This document shows positions 43,856-44,348 of a stretch of DNA of 44,348 bases, in pieces. The position numbers and the translations under genes are program-made. Position 1 is the stretch's first letter, and every line of letters starts with the position of its first letter. This DNA is from Melioribacteraceae bacterium (GTDB lineage Bacteria > Bacteroidota > Ignavibacteria > Ignavibacteriales > Melioribacteraceae), in the NCBI GenBank assembly GCA_028282005.1, contig JANQIV010000213.1:1-44348 (forward strand), read 5' to 3'. The notes beneath the pieces are model-generated. The model searched no databases and was not told the origin of the DNA. It saw nothing but the letters and a program-made list of their open reading frames with translations.

Positions 43856-44348
43856 ATGAAATCCAGCGCATTTAATCAATTCAGATTTGGTTTAGTTAGT
43901 CTCTTTGTAATTATTGTTGTCGGGACATTAGGTTACGAAATTATTGAGGAGGATTGGGACCTTCTCGATTCTTTTTATATGACTGTAATTACAATTTCAA
44001 CAACAGGTTTTAAAGAAGTAAAAAACTTATCAACTGAAGGTAGAATTTTAACAATATTTCTGATTATTTCAGGTGTTTTAACCATTGCTTACACAGGAGG
44101 TAAAGCGGCACAAATACTGGTTGAAACACAGTTATTCAGGAGGAGAAGGATGAGCAAAGAACTTGAAAATATTTCTGGGCATTACATCGTTTGCGGTTAC
44201 GGAAGAATGGGTAAACACATCTGTGATGGGTTGAAGTATAATAAAATGCCTTTTGTTGTTATCGAGAACGATTTGAAGAAGATTGAAATAATTGACGAGT
44301 TAGGATATCTCTTTATAAATGGTGATGCAACAAGTGATGAAATTTTTA
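43856..44348 (+). CDS. Two-helix potassium channel with RCK/TrkA-N domain (3' end cut by window edge)
   Basis: The 164 visible residues show TM1 (11-27), a pore loop with filter-like ITISTTGFKEV (45-55), TM2 (64-80), then an RCK NAD-binding fold from about 109 (HYIVCGYGRMGKHI, with the acidic VIEND after it). The layout is that of MthK-type ligand-gated K+ channels. The filter reads T-T-G-F-K-E instead of T-x-G-Y-G-D. Met99, between TM2 and RCK, has AGGAGG six bases upstream (44138-44143), as if the RCK part were also made alone. The gene starts at ATG 43856 and continues past the window. Confidence 0.88.
   Translation, partial: MKSSAFNQFRFGLVSLFVIIVVGTLGYEIIEEDWDLLDSFYMTVITISTTGFKEVKNLSTEGRILTIFLIISGVLTIAYTGGKAAQILVETQLFRRRRMSKELENISGHYIVCGYGRMGKHICDGLKYNKMPFVVIENDLKKIEIIDELGYLFINGDATSDEIF
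44138..44152 (+). promoter_or_regulatory. Internal ribosome binding site and start in the K+ channel gene
   Basis: AGGAGG at 44138-44143, then six bases, then in-frame ATG 44150. It is the best SD in the window although it lies inside a coding region; it encodes the Arg-rich junction RRRR before Met99. Confidence 0.6.

Follow-up and report, generated by a model that had tools for sequence, protein, structure and literature searches.

Codon-level conservation of an internal Shine-Dalgarno sequence and start codon at the pore/RCK junction of a bacterial two-helix channel gene, with a predicted free RCK product

The locus considered here raises the question of whether a single reading frame, coding for a K+ channel with two transmembrane (TM) helices and an RCK domain, gives rise to one protein or to two. 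The window, that is, the whole stretch of DNA analysed (44,348 nt), includes on its forward strand the first 164 codons of this gene (43856..44348), with the Pfam domains Ion_trans_2 and TrkA_N. The gene is interrupted by the contig end, where the end of contig C175 and the start of contig C74 overlap by 99 identical bases, a break that probably reflects a k-mer overlap left by the assembly. The remaining 168 codons, including TrkA_C, were recovered from C74 (L001) through the 99-bp overlap, and the joined protein has 332 aa, a computed mass of 36.9 kDa and TrkA_C at its end. Its layout is a pore part of two TM helices and a P-loop, after which comes a single RCK domain (TrkA_N + TrkA_C), and its closest named relatives are found in Melioribacteraceae and other Ignavibacteria. 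The gene located directly downstream of the channel (L001:619-1781) resembles, by eye, a penicillin-acylase-type hydrolase gene.

According to the original prediction, the channel frame carries a second initiation signal between TM2 and the RCK domain, while its main start lacks a Shine-Dalgarno (SD) sequence, and the sequence has borne out each of these points. The internal SD sequence AGGAGG (44138..44143, forward strand) corresponds to codons Arg95-Arg96, with AGG at codon 95, and is separated by a six-base spacer (AGAAGG, 44144-44149) from an ATG (44150..44152, forward strand) that is codon 99 (Met99) of the frame opened at 43856. The site falls between Ion_trans_2 (residues 16-89) and TrkA_N (from residue 110), at the pore/RCK junction. 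The anti-SD duplex energy was -10.3 kcal/mol at the internal site versus -1.7 kcal/mol at the main start ATG (43856..43858, forward strand), both calculated with an anti-SD not read from this species, the host assembly containing no SSU rRNA. The use of SD sequences by the host is deduced from the window ORFs, in which 19% of first ATGs showed an energy of -6 or lower, versus 2% of internal ATGs; among in-frame internal ATGs of these ORFs, 0/210 reached -9. The predicted free RCK product, which would begin with MSKELENISG at 44150 and continue in the window to 44348 (forward strand) with TrkA_N, has in full 234 aa and a computed mass of 25.8 kDa. A scan against Rfam gave no RNA family match.

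The motif by itself is at chance level, since AGGAGG-N4-9-ATG is expected 0.89 times in the 44,348-nt window and was found once. This count has been set aside as evidence for an internal start, and the meaning of the motif therefore rests on the comparison across homologues. The chance level also agrees with a reading in which Arg codons happen to spell the SD, owing to ordinary codon bias and the protein constraint on a basic linker; basic linkers after TM2 are common, and AGR-type poly-Arg codons resemble an SD sequence.

The position of the internal start has an archaeal precedent in MthK, the Ca2+-gated K+ channel of Methanothermobacter thermautotrophicus, in which a free RCK produced from the internal start Met107 makes the other half of the gating ring (PMC2920069, PMC9440719). 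The likeness to MthK anticipated for this locus is confirmed by the alignment, Met99 corresponding to Met107 in ungapped register, with ten residues in both proteins from the Met to the His that precedes the first RCK strand. Both channels have two TM helices and one RCK domain in about 330 aa, with a free RCK of about 230 aa. For an orthologue, AlphaFold2 predicted (pLDDT 84, pTM 0.54) a single long helix at residues 60-105, which comprises TM2 and the linker, and placed the first strand of the Rossmann fold at residue 110; the best PDB match of this model with Foldseek was full-length MthK (E=5.5e-23). The channel was thus found to have the MthK-type single-RCK architecture. The differences are that the channel described here is bacterial and about 25% identical to MthK, that the start in its homologues is often GTG or TTG, and that its RCK domain carries the Rossmann motif GYGRMG and the acidic residue E137, whereas MthK has CGWSES. 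The Rossmann motif is intact (CGYGRMG ... VVIEN, residues 113-137, 44192-44268), which suggests a nucleotide ligand; GYGRMG and acidic E137 are typical of nucleotide-binding RCKs, so Ca2+ by itself is probably not what the domain binds.

The selectivity filter departs from the canonical K+ signature T-x-G-Y/F-G, as the corresponding region (residues 49-55, 44000..44020, forward strand, from the translation) reads TTGFKEV. The second Gly of GYG is retained in 76/319 homologues, and most of the others have Lys, Gln, Arg, Ser, Ala or Met. This single-Gly filter is reminiscent of Trk/Ktr/HKT pores, and the resemblance means that K+ selectivity should not be assumed.

The reading that we favour, with a probability of about 0.86 and argued from sequence comparison, is that this one reading frame is translated into two proteins, the full channel and a free RCK which, as in MthK, would complete an octameric gating ring. 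Ribosomes starting at 43856 would synthesize the full channel subunit, with two TM helices and one RCK, while the AGGAGG at 44138-44143 would recruit ribosomes independently to start at Met99 and yield a soluble free RCK of about 234 aa. Four of these free subunits, together with four tethered ones, would then form the octameric ring, as described for MthK Met107.

In 79 genomes of the family, 29 orthologous loci were identified, and the analysis of codons in the window gene and the readable orthologues (29 sequences) was the check proposed with the original prediction. The ATG at the site was retained in all family orthologues. At codon 95, 25/27 Arg residues are encoded by AGG, a codon whose share among all Arg codons of these genes is 19% (p=1.8e-16); of the 1,186 combinations of site and codon tested, this was the most extreme, and the next best site was at 2e-9. 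When residue 96 is Ser, its codon is AGC or AGT, so that AGGAG is retained. The stretch RRRRM was the most conserved 5-codon window for synonymous codons (z=10.2, permuting synonymous codons per gene). The main start could be read in 25 family loci; of these, 84% showed an SD of -6 or lower at the internal site versus none at the main start, even taking the best main-start candidate. The original prediction had also named what would speak against it, orthologues that keep the basic residues and lose the SD and ATG; six members (L013, L019, L023, L030, L032 and L038) do keep the basic residues and have a weak SD or none, with the ATG preserved, and they represent only a minority of the family. 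In another orthologue (L037 / L128, same-family genome G013), in-frame stop codons were found, and the internal SD and ATG are still there.

The comparison was extended beyond the family with homologues obtained from a scan of GTDB genomes by peptide patterns away from the linker and from phylum-wide searches in Bacteroidota, Nitrospirota, Desulfobacterota, Spirochaetota and Calditrichota. A set of 316 homologues was compared, with 277 outside Bacteroidota proper and 40 of Bacteroidota proper in the tallies; plasmid homologues, mostly too distant, were left out of the count. An SD was scored at an energy of -6 or lower, and the simple binomial p values are indicative only and overstated, because the homologues are related to each other. 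The residue at the aligned site varies among Met, Leu and Val, and the codon remains a start codon, in agreement with the predicted conservation of the signal, since start codon and SD persist across phyla in spite of the amino acid replacements. In the sequences outside Bacteroidota proper, TTG encodes 96/99 of the Leu residues at the site (background about 12.5%) and GTG 54/55 of the Val residues (background 30%), and Ile was found twice among the 277 sequences. The codons CTG and TTA, each only one synonymous transition away from TTG, account for 3/99 of the Leu residues. The proportion of TTG/GTG is 96% at the site, compared with 43% in the next column and a median of 19% over the 112 columns with at least 60 Leu/Val, and parsimony on a FastTree tree gave about 28 changes from one start codon to another.

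An SD together with a start codon was present at the site in 235/277 (85%) of the homologues outside Bacteroidota proper, compared with 17% for the remaining in-frame start codons in those genes (n=5,513). Along the gene, the SD energy peaks at columns 99-102, with the strongest mean of any column. The last GGAG ends mostly 7 or 4 nt from the start codon, and the 4-nt class corresponds to GGGAGGAG-type sites with a second, overlapping GGAG. The SD is spelled by AGG-AGG (RR), AGG-AGC/AGT (RS), GGG-AGG (GR) or CGG-AGG (RR), but also by GGA-GGC (GG) in L329 and L330, by AAG-GAG (KE) in L357 and L360, and by GTG-GAG-GAC and similar codons (VED, MEE, VEE) in L359, L362 and L363. The start is shifted by one to three codons in L110, L117, L211, L276, L277, L295, L296 and L303. 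Five Nitrospirota sequences (L158, L162, L164, L172 and L180) have a full AAGGAGGT about 16 nt before the ATG, with KK (AAA-AAR) at the usual SD position, which may or may not act as an SD with a long spacer, and in a Rhodococcus homologue a GGAG is located nine bases ahead of the aligned ATG.

These data make it very improbable that the SD merely follows from Arg codons. The synonymous tests at codons 95 and 99 argue against that reading, as do the near absence of CTG and TTA and the persistence of the SD where the residues are Gly-Gly or Val-Glu-Glu; it is refuted for the family as a whole. An internal in-frame initiation signal, composed of SD and start codon, is thus selected beyond protein coding, as judged from codon usage.

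A signal selected at this place could also act during elongation. An SD-like sequence directly after TM2 might pause the ribosome once this helix emerges and aid membrane insertion or RCK folding, with no initiation, and AGG is a minor Arg codon in the family, as would suit a pause. However, such a pause does not need a start codon at fixed spacing, and yet the downstream codon is held to ATG, GTG or TTG and not to an amino acid, while the SD is spelled by different codons in other clades. SD and start also disappear together, both being absent in 8 sequences and the start alone in 1 (Fisher p=1e-6), and the start is retained with a weak SD or none in 33. Dual-RCK channels share the TM2-RCK junction and are without the signal. 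Pausing has been rejected on the basis of the start-codon constraint, the joint loss and the dual-RCK contrast, and we regard it as highly unlikely.

The dual-RCK channels are a natural control for the need for a second product. It is stated generally in the GsuK paper that single-RCK channels need an internal start, and one recombinant GsuK construct reportedly begins at an internal Met107 (PMC3510474). GsuK of Geobacter sulfurreducens is likewise an RCK-gated K+ channel with an octameric ring, but it has two RCK domains per chain, and its relatives are without the internal SD and start at the site; a tandem RCK pair of the GsuK type was not found in the channel family studied here. If the purpose of a free RCK is to provide eight RCKs around four pores, chains with two RCKs should not need the internal start. 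The control set comprised 27 GsuK-like channels from Desulfobacterota, in which any start codon accompanied by an SD was accepted within the 20 codons that precede the RCK. Such a combination was found in 3/27 dual-RCK versus 62/69 single-RCK channels of Desulfobacterota (Fisher p=2e-13), and the 3 matches were at scattered positions. The length downstream of the site has a median of 236 aa, and almost all dual-RCK control channels have 432 or more there. The signal is therefore under codon-level selection across phyla in single-RCK but not in dual-RCK channels, and from it we infer initiation at Met99, the protein product and the assembly of the ring.

The same control bears on the partner of the free RCK. 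It is conceivable, although improbable, that the free RCK is made and acts mainly with a Trk/Ktr-type transporter, or as ligand-buffering free RCK rings, instead of joining its own channel. The free product matches KtrA/KtrC in domain make-up and size, and KtrA/KtrC were among the profile matches. Moreover, in all non-Bacteroidota groups the SD at the internal site is stronger than that of even the best candidate main start, and for this reason the free subunit would at least equal the channel in amount, maybe with an excess of RCK. Nevertheless, the dual-RCK control fits a need set by the ring stoichiometry of the channel itself, and the start site corresponds to Met107 of MthK, where the resulting product becomes part of the MthK channel itself.

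Other observations count against the production of a free RCK to complete the ring. E. coli Kch, also an RCK-containing channel, has a proposed internal start (Met240) before its RCK domain, and according to PMC2920069, which cites Kuo et al. 2003, expression and function were unchanged without this putative start. Kch differs in having 6 TM helices, and upstream of its Met240 codon only a weak SD-like sequence, AAAGGA, was found at about 14 nt. Further counterpoints are the orthologues with a weak SD or none, the Calditrichota, with both SD and start in 11/25 and distant sequences often without a strong SD, and Bacteroidota proper, in which 38/40 have a start codon there or close by and 2/40 an SD. 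Bacteroidota use SD sequences weakly, and the scarcity at the site fits this habit of the phylum; at the main starts of Bacteroidota proper, 9% were at -6 or below.

A separate RCK subunit from an internal ribosome-binding site has a further parallel in the Thermotoga maritima TrkA proteins TM1088A/TM1088B, in which a TTG start with the internal site GGGAG gives rise to a separate RCK subunit of an octameric ring (PMC4380455). That system has the overlapping stop/start of two genes instead of nested in-frame products, and no channel is in frame. In the literature, which was covered in part, no report was found of the conservation, the non-ATG starts or the dual-RCK control, and an earlier remark in Jiang et al. 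2002 is possible. The mechanism is known in kind, and the cross-phylum codon evidence and the dual-RCK control appear to be new.

Considering all these data, it is likely that SD-driven co-production of a free RCK is ancient and general in bacterial single-RCK channels of at least five phyla, with selection acting on codons, a signal tuned above that of the main start, an SD-independent start in Bacteroidota proper, and the second start dispensed with when the RCK was duplicated within the chain. The in vivo role of free RCK subunits and octameric rings is disputed, the idea derived from MthK being based largely on recombinant protein and structures, and a 2009 study on KefC reportedly questioned octamers. 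The codon-level selection, the joint loss and the natural control offered by dual-RCK channels are evolutionary evidence that the second product is needed, and hundreds of annotated channel genes would have an unannotated second start. Precise synonymous mutations follow from the codon evidence and would allow a clean test. If true, ancient and general co-production of the free RCK would settle, for bacteria, the dispute over whether the octameric ring matters in vivo.
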